The notes under the pieces are model-generated. The model ran no database searches, was not told where the DNA came from, and saw nothing but the letters and a program-made list of their open reading frames with translations. From the NCBI RefSeq assembly GCF_020405225.1, contig NZ_CP084472.1, positions 3,658,001 to 3,722,000 of the forward strand: a DNA stretch of 64,000 nt, read 5' to 3'. The position numbers were made by a program, and so were the translations under genes. Positions 32,049-39,937 of the stretch are shown here, piece by piece. How positions within the stretch are numbered: position 1 is the stretch's first letter; each line of letters begins with the position of its first letter. Source of the DNA: Natrinema sp. DC36. Lineage in GTDB: Archaea > Halobacteriota > Halobacteria > Halobacteriales > Natrialbaceae.

Positions 32049-32120
32049 GCCTGGGTAGCTTAGCGGTAAAGCGCGTCCTTGGTAAGGACGAGAGCCCGGG
32101 TTCAAATCCCGGCCTAGGCT
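32049..32120 (+). tRNA. tRNA-Thr (GGT)
   Basis: Acceptor GCCTGGG/CCTAGGC (one G-U pair), D-arm GCTT/AAGC, anticodon stem CGTCC/GGACG around TTGGTAA (anticodon GGT), T-arm CCGGG-TTCAAAT-CCCGG, discriminator T. The last 34 bases are also the left attachment site of the integrated element. TGCGCC-TGC-GGCGCA right after it can form a small terminator-like hairpin. Confidence 0.96.
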
Positions 32121-32122
32121 TG
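32087..32122 (+). repeat. attL (36-bp direct repeat)
   Basis: From the anticodon-stem 3' side of tRNA-Thr to two bases beyond its end. Identical to 39650-39685. Integration here leaves the tRNA gene complete. Confidence 0.93.
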
Positions 32123-32416
32123 CGCCTGCGGCGCAGACTGTAATTCCTGTAGGGAACCGCTCTAGTATAGTTTTTACGCCGATTATCAGAGGGGATTTCC
32201 ACCCGTCTTCAGGAGACTTTTGCTGGGATTGAGAAAGAACAAAGGACACCCGCGCGCGCAGTCCCCCCGCTATGTACGGCATTTTTCGAAAAGGCAGGAC
32301 AGTTAACCAGAATAGGCACTATCTCATTCACAAATTCTCTCCTACAGACCTATTAAATGTATATGTTTAATAGGTATAGATTAGTAAATATGTATATATA
32401 TAATAAATATTAGTAG

Positions 32417-32901: not shown

Positions 32902-33837
32902 TTAATTCACCTTCTGTCCCCGAACGGTATCTATATCGTCAATTTCCTTCATCTCCTCAATCAATCCGCAAATATCTTTTAGCAAGCTCAATGCATTATT
33001 CACCTGACGAATAGCCTCTTCTAAAGTCAAATTCTCATATTCAGTATGAGCCACGTTATTCCGGTAGTCAACTAATATTGAAATCTCATGGTATTGACGT
33101 TTGCTTATCATCTTCTTCCCACTATTCGGTTTTTGAATCTTTTTCAGTGCTTCTTTTCTACTGTAGAACTTCGCCTCATCCCAGTCTTTTTCTCTACCAA
33201 ATGGCTCAATTGTCTCAATTTTCCGTTCTTGGCCTAATTCAAGCAAGGCCTTTTCTACTGCTCTTCCTAATACAAACAAGCCAGTTGAATAGTATCCGAT
33301 ACAAAACATATCTCGTGCCTCATAAACATCATTACGATATTTTTCAGGCACTTCATTCGGATTGATATTTGAACCCATAAATTCGATATAATTGGAGAGT
33401 TTTTGAAAAACACCAGCATAAAGAGAGTTAGGCTCATAGTCTAAAATATCCTCCAATCTACTAATTAGTCGGTCTGGTTCCCCCTTAAACCACCCTTCCT
33501 CAGCACGCCAGGTTGCAGCTGCAACTGTTTGCCAAAAGTCACCAAACCACTCGTTATGAATTATGTCTGGGAAATTATATATAAACACCTCTAATCCTCT
33601 AATGAGTTTAAAAATAAGGGTTTTACCATCCATAACCACAGAACCGCTTGAAATGTCTTCCCGTCGGTATTTTTTCACAATCTCATCTATGCCATTCATG
33701 GATTCAAATATATTCTTAAACTCACTATGCAATTGGAAAATCCGCTGAACAATATTCGAATTTTCATAAGGGATCCACGGTGGTTGAAAATAATAATAGA
33801 AATCATCATCAGCATCATGGAAAGTTCTGGGGTTCAT
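32902..33837 (-). CDS. HEPN-like domain protein (DUF4145-like C-terminus)
   Basis: 311 residues, AT-rich codons. The N-terminal half (DDDFYYYFQPPWIPYENSNI; WFGDFWQTVAAATWRAEEGW) is unrecognised and helical. The C-terminal part (about 170-300) has DMFCIGYYSTGLFVLGRAVE and then LVDYRNNVAHTEYENLTLEE. R259-N-N-V-A-H264 fits the Rx4-6H RNase motif of HEPN domains, in the arrangement seen in DUF4145-type proteins. HEPN proteins are frequent RNA-cleaving toxins and defence effectors. It diverges from the GIY-YIG gene across a 156-bp promoter region. Confidence 0.68.
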   Translation of the reverse strand: MNPRTFHDADDDFYYYFQPPWIPYENSNIVQRIFQLHSEFKNIFESMNGIDEIVKKYRREDISSGSVVMDGKTLIFKLIRGLEVFIYNFPDIIHNEWFGDFWQTVAAATWRAEEGWFKGEPDRLISRLEDILDYEPNSLYAGVFQKLSNYIEFMGSNINPNEVPEKYRNDVYEARDMFCIGYYSTGLFVLGRAVEKALLELGQERKIETIEPFGREKDWDEAKFYSRKEALKKIQKPNSGKKMISKRQYHEISILVDYRNNVAHTEYENLTLEEAIRQVNNALSLLKDICGLIEEMKEIDDIDTVRGQKVN

Positions 33838-34668: not shown

Positions 34669-35528
34669 TCGGAGTGCTATACTTTACAGGCAGGAAGGAG
34701 AGTCTGACGTCTGCCCCTATTATAACCAAATTATAGGATCTTCTCGAGCCGGGTTACGTTATCTGCCTTTTTCTCTCGAGCGTTCATGTTCTAACCTCCA
34801 AGAATTTCCAACTGCATCTATGTACCAGTCGAACACTCATACCAGAATACTTAGTATGATGTCTAATAGATCAATGGGATGGTATATTCACAAATAATTT
34901 TTTAAACGTTTAAATCACATCAGTTGCTAATTTAGAAAACAGACCAGATCTATTTGTGGGGGTTCTGAGGGAGTTTTCTACTCGAGGCGATGGAACCCAT
35001 TCACAACTTTCTAACGTTGCATAGACGGCGACTCAGATGTCTTAGAATTGATTTCAGCGAGTGAGGTCTGCTTCCATAGTAGAGATGGACTGGTAGTCAA
35101 AATCACGCCTCTGCTGTAGTCCCCAACAGTATGCTTTGCTGTAGTACTGTAACAGTAGTACTATAGAAAAGTCGGGAAGCAGAGTACAGCAACTGCACAG
35201 CATACAGCACAGCAATACATAATAAGGTAACTTACTTTGTTATTTTATCATTTCTCTATACGAAGACAGTGAGATATTTAGAAGGTTGCTCTCTTCTGAA
35301 GAGTACTCATTGGAGTAGTCACAGCTCACTGACCATTAATATAATATTTTATACCATTAATGAAAAGTATAATAAATATTATATATTTGATAGGGCACCT
35401 TCCAGACTTTATTTAGTTAGGCCAACTACACAAGTGGCAGTTGTCCGCTCTCGGCTCTTTTTATACCGATAGTGGGCCTATAAGAAATCAGCACTTTCAT
35501 ATTATCTTCCATTTTGGTATAGCTAAAT
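34669..35528. other. Long noncoding region with palindromes and clustered short repeats
   Basis: 860 bases without a credible gene. It holds the first copy of an imperfect 85-bp repeat (34,714-34,799), a perfect 14-bp palindrome TTTAAACGTTTAAA (34,901-34,914), and between 35,108 and 35,217 a cluster of short inverted and direct repeats built from GCTGTAGT, AGTACTGT and ACAGCA words. GAAAAGTCGGGAAG at 35,166 recurs at 36,543. It may be a control region or an origin used when the element is excised. Confidence 0.6.
34714..34799 (+). repeat. Imperfect 85-bp direct repeat, copy 1
   Basis: Shares CCCCT, ATACCAAA/ATAACCAAA, CGAGCC(G/A)GGTTACGTTAT and T(T/C)ATGTTCTAAC with copy 2 at 36,286, in the same order and spacing. 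It lies just after the GIY-YIG gene. With copy 2 it brackets the membrane-protein gene. Confidence 0.75.
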
Positions 35529-36254: not shown

Positions 36255-36772
36255 AGCATATGATCAAAATAATGACACTGGGCGTCCCCTCTATACCAAA
36301 ATAATAGAATTTTTTCGAGCCAGGTTACGTTATTAGCTACTCACCTCTCCTCGTTTATGTTCTAACTCCCTCATGGGGTTCTGGTTTTGATATACTATTA
36401 CTAACAATAATCAGATTAACTGTTACATCGGAACACGCGAGAAGGGATATATTATGAGACAGTCTCTAATAAGATTGTTCTTAACAGTAAAAGGGGGAAC
36501 CACGTGGTAGGCACCTTCTTGCCTTCTAAAAAGGGCATCACTGAAAAGTCGGGAAGGCGCATAACACAGGTCATCCCATTAGAGAAGTCACTGTCCCGTT
36601 GGGACCAAGAAATCATATTGCGGGCGACTTCCCGACTTAATTCGGGTATCTCGAGACAGTGGCTCTTTCACAGACTTTCTAAACCACTTTTGGTGTCCCT
36701 GTAGACGGGATTCTCTTTCGTCAGGAAACAGTTCTTGGGTTCGTTACCTCAACCAAGATAATACACAGGGGT
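36255..36772. other. Noncoding spacer with direct and inverted repeats
   Basis: No credible gene. It contains the second 85-bp repeat copy, the palindrome CCACGTGG near 36,500, the pair AAGTCGGGAAG (36,545) and CTTCCCGACTT (36,628) about 70 nt apart, and AGGGGT-TTAAGT-ACCCCT at about 36,766-36,783, overlapping the stop of the next gene on the minus strand, which may help terminate it. Confidence 0.55.
36286..36370 (+). repeat. Imperfect 85-bp direct repeat, copy 2
   Basis: Matches 34,714-34,799 in the same orientation, by eye roughly three quarters identical, with the CGAGCC(A)GGTTACGTTAT block almost perfect. It begins about 30 nt after the membrane-protein stop. Confidence 0.75.
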
Positions 36773-37563: not shown

Positions 37564-38484
37564 TTATCTTGGCCTCTCCGGTGGTGAATCGTCAATTGAG
37601 GATTGGATAATCAAGTCCCTATTGAGTCCATTTTCCTCTAGAAGATCCCCTACTGCCTCTATAGTACTATCAGTTGTTCCTGGAGCCACATAGACCGATT
37701 CAATTAGCTCTTGTAGGTCTACAGAAACTGGAATTCCGTTCGGTTGTTGTTCCCACTTAATCTTGTGCGCATTATCTGGGCCATCCTCTACAGGCTCATC
37801 TGTGGTGGGCACTGAGAAAATAATTGCTCGAAGCTCCTTTTCTCCTTTGTATTGTTTCCTTTTATGAACGAAAGGAAGAAGACCATTGCCTTCTGGGATT
37901 GAATCCTCAGAAAAATCAATATACCTCACCTTTCCTATAAATACCTCCTGCTCTTTGTGGGGTCTAAATGCATTCTTTAAATTACCGATAGTAGATTTTA
38001 TAGCAATACCTTTCTTATCGGAATAGCTGTCCCACATGAGATTTGATTCAGCGTCATTTATATGCCAACAATTTAGGAAATGAGATGGTTTCGAAAATTC
38101 ATAGCTCTCTATTGGTCTTTCTCGGATTTGTTCAACTGCGCTCTCAAGATTTTCCTCTGAATATATTTCCTCTATCTGCTCTCTATCTATCTCTTCATCA
38201 GCGAACTCCTCTAGCTGCTCCTCGACAAACTCCAAATCAACATTTTCCCATTGTCTTTTCAAGCTCTCTCGGACTTGTTGAGCCCTCCTTTCTCGATATT
38301 CTTCCGAAAAATTCTCACCGGGAATAGCGCCTTCATAGTCATCGTCCATTTCGTCTGACCGTGCAAAATACAGTTGAGAATCCTCGACTATCTGTTCAAA
38401 CCGTTTGAAAGGCCGGTATCTCCAGATTCTGGTACGGTCAGAAGGCTCTTGTAGAGCACCGTGATCCTTATACATCACTTCCAT
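37564..38484 (-). CDS. DUF2971 family protein
   Basis: 306 residues from the ATG at 38484. It has the family order: IWRYRPFKRFEQIVEDSQLY and FARSDEMDDDYEGAIP at the start, a Glu-rich helical insert (about 65-120), CWHINDAESNLMWDSYSDKK in the middle, GKVRYIDFSEDS, then KRKQYKGEKELRAIIF. The function of DUF2971 is not established; members are often carried on mobile elements and near defence genes. It lies 30 bp after the integrase gene on the same strand and may be co-transcribed with it. Confidence 0.8.
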   Translation of the reverse strand: MEVMYKDHGALQEPSDRTRIWRYRPFKRFEQIVEDSQLYFARSDEMDDDYEGAIPGENFSEEYRERRAQQVRESLKRQWENVDLEFVEEQLEEFADEEIDREQIEEIYSEENLESAVEQIRERPIESYEFSKPSHFLNCWHINDAESNLMWDSYSDKKGIAIKSTIGNLKNAFRPHKEQEVFIGKVRYIDFSEDSIPEGNGLLPFVHKRKQYKGEKELRAIIFSVPTTDEPVEDGPDNAHKIKWEQQPNGIPVSVDLQELIESVYVAPGTTDSTIEAVGDLLEENGLNRDLIIQSSIDDSPPERPR

Positions 38485-38514
38485 CAAAAAATTCCAAAGA
38501 AAATAAATATGTGG

Positions 38515-39522
38515 TTAGATGTCTCGTATGTACTCTTGCCGTCGTTCAGCCTTTTCAGCACTTGATCCTTTGTCGTAGTGCTTCTCAAGTACCGTCCCGC
38601 TCATATTCACCCGTTCCCCAGTGACGTCCTTTGGTTGTCCAGCGTTCCGGGCGGCGGTCACATAGCCTCGACGCAGGGCGTGGGGGCTTACGCTCCCCGG
38701 ACACTTGGACGAAGCGTTCCAAGACATAGCCTCGCAAGATTCTGGGTCGCGGTCAAATGGACACTCTCTACCGTTGTAGTAGCAGGGCCGGGTTGCAGTG
38801 TAGACGTACCGTTGAATCGTCGTCTCTACCACACGACCGCTCTTGGACGTTAGAAGCGGTTCCCGCCCGTGTTCGTCACCTACCTCGTTCTGATTCATCT
38901 CGATGTAGTCCCGGATGATCTCAGCTGTCTCAGCCGTAATCAACACGTCTCTCTCGCTTTTTTCTTTGTTCTTTAGCGGCGTTCCTGTTGTTGGCCTGTG
39001 ACGAAGCTCCAGTGCAGGCCGTCCGTCGTCAAAGTCTTTGAGGTCGAGCGCCCGGAGTCCAGATATTCGCATACCTGTTTTCCACAGGATTAGCAGGGTG
39101 ATGTGACGGTTACTCGCGTACTCGAACTTTTCAAGGAAGTCGAGCATTTCAATAGCTTCGTCCCGGGTGAGGAGGTCGTCGCAGATCTCGTCGTCTTTGC
39201 TGACCGACGGGATACGGACCATGTCGGCTATGCCCCGAGGGACGGCTTGGATGTGCTCGCAGAACTCGATGAACTGCTTGAGCGTCATCATGTCCTGCCG
39301 GGCAGTAATGACCTTCACGTTCGATAGGCGGTGTTCCTTGTACCGCTGGATCAGTTCGCTGTCAAGGTCATTTAGGTCTCTGACGCGCTCGTCTTCCAGC
39401 CAGTCACAGAATTGCCGAATAGAGGTTCGATAATTCTTGAGCGTCTTTCGAGTGACACTAGGCTGTTTGTCTTTGAGGAACCGGTTTTTGGCTTCATGCG
39501 GTGGGGTTGGTTTGAGTGCCAT
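38515..39522 (-). CDS. Tyrosine recombinase (element integrase)
   Basis: 335 residues from the ATG at 39522; a longer frame would start with TTG at 39564. A SAM-like N-terminal domain (about 15-105; RKTLKNYRTSIRQFCDWLED) precedes the catalytic domain with R152 (TGMRISGLRALDL), H281-x-x-R284 (SPHALRRGYVTAARNAG) and the nucleophile Y316 (TVLEKHYDKG). An insert with Cys residues (CYYNGRECPFDRDPESCEAM) may bind zinc. It should carry out integration and excision at the tRNA-Thr site, about 130 bp away. All catalytic residues are present, so it is probably active. Confidence 0.92.
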   Translation of the reverse strand: MALKPTPPHEAKNRFLKDKQPSVTRKTLKNYRTSIRQFCDWLEDERVRDLNDLDSELIQRYKEHRLSNVKVITARQDMMTLKQFIEFCEHIQAVPRGIADMVRIPSVSKDDEICDDLLTRDEAIEMLDFLEKFEYASNRHITLLILWKTGMRISGLRALDLKDFDDGRPALELRHRPTTGTPLKNKEKSERDVLITAETAEIIRDYIEMNQNEVGDEHGREPLLTSKSGRVVETTIQRYVYTATRPCYYNGRECPFDRDPESCEAMSWNASSKCPGSVSPHALRRGYVTAARNAGQPKDVTGERVNMSGTVLEKHYDKGSSAEKAERRQEYIRDI

Positions 39523-39578
39523 GTGATTGTCTCCATGTCCAGCCTGCACCGCAGTTCCCGACAACCGGTGAATGTCTT

Positions 39579-39609
39579 CCTGAGCACCTTAGCGGGTTCA
39601 GCGCGTCCT
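39579..39609 (+). other. Degenerate tRNA-Thr 5'-half-like sequence beside attR
   Basis: CCTGAGCACCTTAGCGG and, after GTTC, AGCGCGTCCT line up with 32,050-32,079 of tRNA-Thr (CCTGGGTAGCTTAGCGG, TAA, AGCGCGTCCT), by eye about 24 of 30 identical. It is followed by about 40 unrelated bases and then the attR copy of the tRNA 3' half. It looks like a broken second tRNA-Thr carried at the element end. Confidence 0.55.
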
Positions 39610-39649
39610 GTTACCTACGCGTCGAGGGCGTGAAACCGCCCGACGGCGC

Positions 39650-39685
39650 GACGAGAGCCCGGGTTCAAATCCCGGCCTAGGCTTG
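39650..39685 (+). repeat. attR (36-bp direct repeat)
   Basis: Exact copy of 32,087-32,122 (3' part of tRNA-Thr). It marks the return from AT-rich element DNA to GC-rich chromosome. Confidence 0.93.
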
Positions 39686-39937
39686 TTCGGCTTCATCGTT
39701 TCTGTCGTGATTCACCTCGTTGAGTGCCGCTATCGTGAGCGGCCTCGCTGACGGGTGCTGCTATTCCCGTATTTTCGTCCGATTTCGAGAACGTGCCGCA
39801 ACTACTGACGGCCGATATCGGTTCGCCGCCCGACCCAAACTGTTGCCGTGTCAACTGCAAGTAGGCCTCGAGCCCGGCTGCAACTGCAGGCTGGTCGTTC
39901 TTGCTCGTCCCGGCGCTGCGTTGGTGTGGTGACCGTA

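Follow-up and report, generated by a model that had tools for sequence, protein, structure and literature searches.

The window, a stretch of 64,000 nucleotides of Natrinema sp. DC36 DNA, raises the question of why an element that integrates into a tRNA gene should carry, besides its att repeat, a diverged copy of the 5' half of the same tRNA. It bears on two wider problems, namely how archaeal integrases recognize tRNA targets with the help of bases outside the identical stretch and how related integrases come to use different tRNA genes, and an attP arm holding a degenerate, matching tRNA copy gives both of them a concrete and testable form. The reading that we favor, and consider probable, is that a captured and worn copy of the target tRNA, consisting of a 5' half, a hairpin in the anticodon loop and a 3' half, makes up the attP arm of the element, with attP at its 3' end.

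The element and its insertion site

The window holds a 7.5-kb element inside the tRNA-Thr(GGT) gene of its haloarchaeal host. The intact target gene lies at the left end (attL, 32049..32120, + strand; ARAGORN and Rfam RF00005, 70.4 bits). A repeat search placed the left copy of a direct repeat, i.e., the 3' part of the tRNA and 2 nt, at 32087..32122 (+ strand, 100%) and the right copy (attR) at 39650..39685 (+ strand). The initial annotation had referred to an expected 36-bp att repeat at this end of the element, and the repeat proved exact, as the two copies are identical at 36/36 positions and comprise the last 34 nt of the tRNA and two further bases. This combination, with an intact tRNA at one end and its 3' part directly repeated at the opposite end, is the mark of a tRNA-targeting integrative element. 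The empty site is found in a congener genome (L202 of G078), where the intact tRNA-Thr gene is joined directly to the counterpart of the host flank that follows position 39685 in the window (39686..39900). The other attP arm (P', 32121..32215, + strand) consists of the palindrome TGCGCCTGCGGCGCA directly after the tRNA and further conserved bases. In an alignment of 15 attL downstream flanks the mean column identity of P' is 77%, a value for an aligned stretch that includes the tRNA end.

The element encodes a tyrosine integrase of 335 aa (38515..39522, - strand; start codon at 39522), identified by domain, PHROG (1.3e-31) and SNJ2 matches. The domain matches, to PF00589 (6.7e-8) and PF02899 (2.5e-7), were obtained with the longer reading 38515-39564. 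The criterion for the SNJ2-type family, as quoted in a review, is an identity of 30% or more across 60% of the protein (PMC8371274). The window integrase exceeds both values, being 39.8% identical to that of the pleolipovirus SNJ2 over 99%, and it shares with SNJ2-type integrases both the Phage_int_SAM and Phage_integrase domains and insertion at tRNA 3' ends. The layout differs, however: attP of SNJ2-like viruses is described as downstream of int and inside a CDS (PMC7911831), whereas att in the window, as in the relatives scored, precedes the integrase start codon and is accompanied by a tRNA body.

A diverged tRNA copy at the right end

Together with the core, the attP arm that adjoins the integrase, as left in attR, spans 39523..39685 (+ strand), and the same layout is found upstream of related integrases. 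Within this arm, 39579..39609 (+ strand) is a diverged copy of nt 2-31 of tRNA-Thr, aligning to tRNA-Thr(GGT) at 32049-32120 with one gap and five mismatches in 31 nt. The alignment score was reached by 0/2000 dinucleotide shuffles of the 91-nt upstream stretch. When the arm was compared with the 5' halves of 42 tRNAs from the same genome, tRNA-Thr(GGT) ranked first (z ~6). Together, these results show that the diverged tRNA-Thr 5' half reported in the initial annotation is real and was correctly placed. The alignment likewise bears out the separation of the halves by about 40 bases near the anticodon loop (39610..39649, + strand).

This insert folds as a hairpin (39618..39650, + strand; inner stem GGGCG-TGAAAC-CGCCC; RNA-parameter folds). 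Taken as a single hairpin, it is not unusual compared with shuffles (z ~ -1). Similar insert-like hairpins were seen in folds of the relatives, although ten of these aligned poorly to one another. The initial annotation had included neither the recurrence of a hairpin in this gap nor the place of the arm as a part of attP that adjoins the integrase start codon and is conserved within subclades.

Loss of the tRNA fold

The right-end copy has lost the tRNA fold and is not a working tRNA. Neither ARAGORN nor Rfam at gathering score called a tRNA at the copy, a permissive Rfam scan (E<=5) of the window copy and of five relatives' loci holding attR copies gave no tRNA match, and direct reading showed D-stem pairs to be lost. 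Of the two origins first proposed, a captured and decayed tRNA or a tRNA mimic made by the element, capture is supported, as the copy is element-borne, target-like and matched in relatives; an RNA mimic is not supported, given the lack of an Rfam match and the loss of D-stem pairs.

A function at the RNA level would require transcription of the copy into an RNA that works like a tRNA, or like a tRNA with an intron. The position of the insert would suit this, as it is close to the usual position of archaeal tRNA introns. Likewise, attP sites have been proposed as intron carriers (Sugahara et al., 2012; PMC3293823). Against this stand the missing tRNA matches at E<=5, the absence by eye of a bulge-helix-bulge in folds of the insert hairpins, and the intact tRNA at attL, which is without an insert. 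We therefore regard an RNA function as very improbable, and the intron reading was dropped for want of a splice motif.

Two known systems resemble the copy in part. In Caldiarchaeum, a tRNA-Thr(GGU) copy of a mobile element also has an internal insert, but this is an intron at 24/25 that ended up in a host tRNA, whereas the host tRNA here is uninterrupted and no splice motif was seen (PMC3293823). In the tRNA-dependent lysogeny of mycobacteriophages, the element also carries a tRNA related to that of its integration target. However, that tRNA is described as working and as replacing a broken host tRNA (PMC10865867), while insertion of the present element restores the tRNA of the host and the element's copy has lost the tRNA fold.

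Arms of related elements match their own targets

Halobacteria of other genera and families encode integrases that are 81-87% identical to that of the window, and further related integrases are 56-68% identical. The relatives include Haloterrigena sp. H1, Halorussus halobius, Haloarcula argentinensis, Halobaculum gomorrense, Halobellus sp. Atlit-31R and Haloferax larsenii. In the Thr(GGT) group, 15/15 genomes searched had a full-length tRNA-Thr(GGT) gene. Upstream of the related integrases, a tRNA 5'-half-like sequence is followed, often after a hairpin at the anticodon-loop position, by the tRNA 3' half, and the arm from start codon to 3' half measures about 48-167 bases. The 5' similarity in the window is thus more than a matter of local decay.

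The 5' half (first 38 nt) of the element's own target ranked first among 42 tRNAs in 16/37 elements, the window included, compared with 1/37 for equally long control flanks beyond the att core (the control of L079 also ranked first). The 42 comparison tRNAs were all from the window's genome and may differ from those of each host, and borderline ranks vary with the random seed (L008 ranked second in one run and first in the final one). By target group, own-target first ranks were found in 10/18 Thr(GGT) and 6/17 Thr(CGT) elements. When arms were merged at 70% identity, the own target came first in 8/21 cluster representatives (binomial p 1.6e-8). The 37 elements exclude L012 and L083, in which the core could not be placed, L190, whose arm is that of L179, and L183, a second copy in the genome of L082, and 13 further listed integrase matches and many matches of about 37-44% identity, all without a locus, lay outside the scoring.

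These counts also bear on chance similarity beside an ordinary 36-bp att repeat. The shortness of the copy, just 31 nt, and the nature of GCGCGTCC, a short GC-rich word, would allow for it. Set against the shuffles and against 16/37 elements vs. 1/37 controls, chance is hardly credible.

The clearest relative is L179, whose reading CTGGGTACAGCCT-GC-GTAAACGGCGCGTCCGTTGGT extends through the anticodon to TTGGT and is followed by a hairpin. Elements that target tRNA-Thr(CGT) have Thr(CGT)-like halves in their arms, and in one of them, L075, the copy runs through the anticodon to TTCGT. Alignment with relatives could have exposed the 5' similarity as non-homologous; instead, it yielded counterparts that are matched to their own targets. 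This suggests that the copy is part of a docking site rather than an accident or a working tRNA. In 21/37 elements the own tRNA did not rank first, and in several of these, L067, L073, L077 and L187 among them, z was close to 0 or negative. Many elements thus have a worn copy or have lost it. Among 23 distant relatives (33-45% identity), the core was found and scored in 10, and the own tRNA came first in 3/10, a weak signal in which two of the three first ranks involve two tied alanine tRNAs.

An arm of this kind might also have arisen by convergence, without any capture, if the integrase needs similar attB and attP sites and selection pulled the arm toward the tRNA sequence. According to the review (PMC8371274), nucleotides that flank the stretch of identity are also required in archaeal att sites, and this, like the conservation of the arm described below, agrees with convergence. 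However, about 35 nt in L179 and L068 align in order with few gaps, which is more like descent than scattered binding sites, and we consider convergence unlikely.

A DNA search for the 5' copy in 125 genomes found nothing convincing, the best other match being E 4.8e-4 over 36 nt of the insert. In plasmid and phage collections, the search gave one match, to the 3' half, in one collection and none in the other. L205 (G059) holds a longer contiguous 5' copy, with no integrase reading frame standing out alongside. In G088 (L090 / L099, G088:C1:313856-314156), the left end of a related element has a tandem pair of complete tRNA-Thr(GGT) genes that are of different sequence types and separated by 157 bp. 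The reading of this pair as a delivered tRNA was set aside; both copies have promoter-like upstream sequence.

Position of strand exchange

In 16 Thr(GGT) elements, attR differed from the element's own attL within the 13 nt left of the T loop in 7/16, in the T loop in 3/16 and in the last 13 nt in 1/16. The corresponding values for 17 Thr(CGT) elements, compared with their common sequence, were 7/17, 9/17 and 0/17, where assignment of Thr(CGT) targets by the tRNA 3' end favors an intact right block. Over all 33 attR copies, the T loop was altered in 12/33 and the last 13 nt were intact in 32/33; in this comparison, an extra base by the T loop of L082 was counted as unchanged. While the identity in the window extends over 36 nt, the last 13 nt alone are kept throughout nearly all copies. 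For the SNJ2-type att site, the review gives 13-14 nt (PMC8371274). In addition, the attR of L065 and L069 are chimeras, with the left T-stem strand of one tRNA type and the right strand of the other.

These patterns suggest that strands are exchanged at or right of the T loop, although some of the changes may postdate insertion. In that case, all of the tRNA body to the left of this loop would be part of the element. Exchange in the anticodon stem, at the start of the identity in the window, was dropped, as the differences between attR and attL lie left of or inside the T loop and hardly in the last 13 nt.

The attR copies with an altered T loop are L004, L008, L010, L070, L072-L075, L079, L181, L182 and L184, and several of them share one extra C (GTTCCAAAT). 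In the attR of L184, the hairpin-plus-core stretch CGCCCGACGGCGTGCCGAGGTTCCAAAT is tandemly duplicated.

Conservation of the arm

In 7/7 pairs compared within subclades, which were chosen from the most similar arms and are non-independent, the arm has diverged less than the third codon positions of the integrase (P 1.5e-6 to 0.002). For example, the arms of L064 and L065 have 2/66 differences compared with 16.5 expected. Conservation of the arm alone does not imply that the tRNA-like bases matter, because the arm also holds any integrase promoter. In the L006 type, the tRNA-like stretch lies near the integrase start, where repeated GGGTACA motifs and a TAAAC box, read by eye, overlap with it. 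Part of both the similarity and the conservation could therefore be due to arm sites or a promoter.

The arm might be a pure relic of an ancestor whose att site was a longer stretch of the tRNA, or which acquired a whole gene once, and the remainder left of the core would be decaying without function. The patchy similarity, with the own target below the top rank in 21/37 arms, and the lost tRNA fold agree with this. However, decay does not fit arms that are more conserved than third codon positions within subclades, and target matching in two target groups would require separate captures. We therefore find a pure relic rather doubtful.

A model for the attP arm

In the reading that we favor, the captured copy as attP arm, capture is supported, and we infer its function from sequence comparison. 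The element would carry a copy of its target tRNA gene, acquired by capture, and attP would lie where this copy has its 3' end. From the start codon to the core, the arm would consist of a worn tRNA-Thr 5' half, a hairpin in the anticodon loop and the 3' half. The tRNA 3' end would serve as the recombination core, and recombination there would rebuild the host tRNA at attL, so that the tRNA body of the element would remain at attR without tRNA duty. The body may have been captured whole, and the integrase or a helper may read it as DNA, with exchange at or right of the T loop. Such reading is plausible in view of the reported requirement of archaeal integrases for bases beyond the stretch of identity (PMC8371274). 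In a more specific version, which we put forward only tentatively, attP of this integrase family would be a tRNA-shaped and target-matched docking site, and the recombinase would read the tRNA body at attB as well as at attP. The hairpin would show which of the two partners is attP and would close, e.g., as a cruciform, to join the halves, and targets would change by capture of a whole tRNA gene.

Imperfect or truncated tRNA-Thr copies at haloarchaeal integrases, prophage sites and the haloviruses HF1/HF2 have already been published (PMC3119063). The copy described there is also a diverged partial tRNA-Thr (57 nt, 5 mismatches, without 15 nt at the 5' end). In contrast to the arms analyzed here, it has no integrase nearby, and the extracted text describes neither an anticodon-loop hairpin nor target matching across relatives. 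In the open-access literature, which most subscription journals lie outside, we found no account of an attP that contains both a target-matched 5' half and a hairpin. Relative to the published imperfect tRNA copies, the target-matched 5' half with its hairpin is new.

Cargo genes and small units at tRNA ends

Among the other genes of the element, 32902-33837 (- strand) encodes a protein with weak HEPN-domain matches in domain searches, and 37564-38487 (- strand) encodes one that matches the candidate defence family PDC-S31 (2.2e-19, family search). Three further element proteins had no useful functional matches in domain, defence-family and PHROG searches. A 42-nt repeat inside the element (34721-34762 and 36292-36333, 83% identical) may be a shared promoter or regulatory site.

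In several relatives, attR is directly adjoined by a unit of 85-151 bp, at whose boundary the tRNA 3' end occurs a second time (e.g., the attR flanks of L009, L083 and L181; further loci are L216-L235). Such units consist of a hairpin, an inverted T arm, a second hairpin and a tRNA 3'-end copy, and they lie directly after many kinds of tRNA (Thr, Phe, Val, Pro, Ile, Met, Asp), sometimes in tandem. Their inner motif (inverted T arm, short hairpin and GTTCACAATC) was found in 125 of 391 Halobacteria genomes drawn and in 51/86 genera, while a backward control pattern gave no match among the matches listed. Possibly, these units form a family of miniature elements that are bounded by att sites and make use of tRNA 3' ends. 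The genome of the window also holds two identical tRNA-like genes of 119 nt with an internal insert (G000:C1:629807-629925 and 701618-701736; L169 and L170), which ARAGORN calls, with uncertainty, as Ala(cgc).
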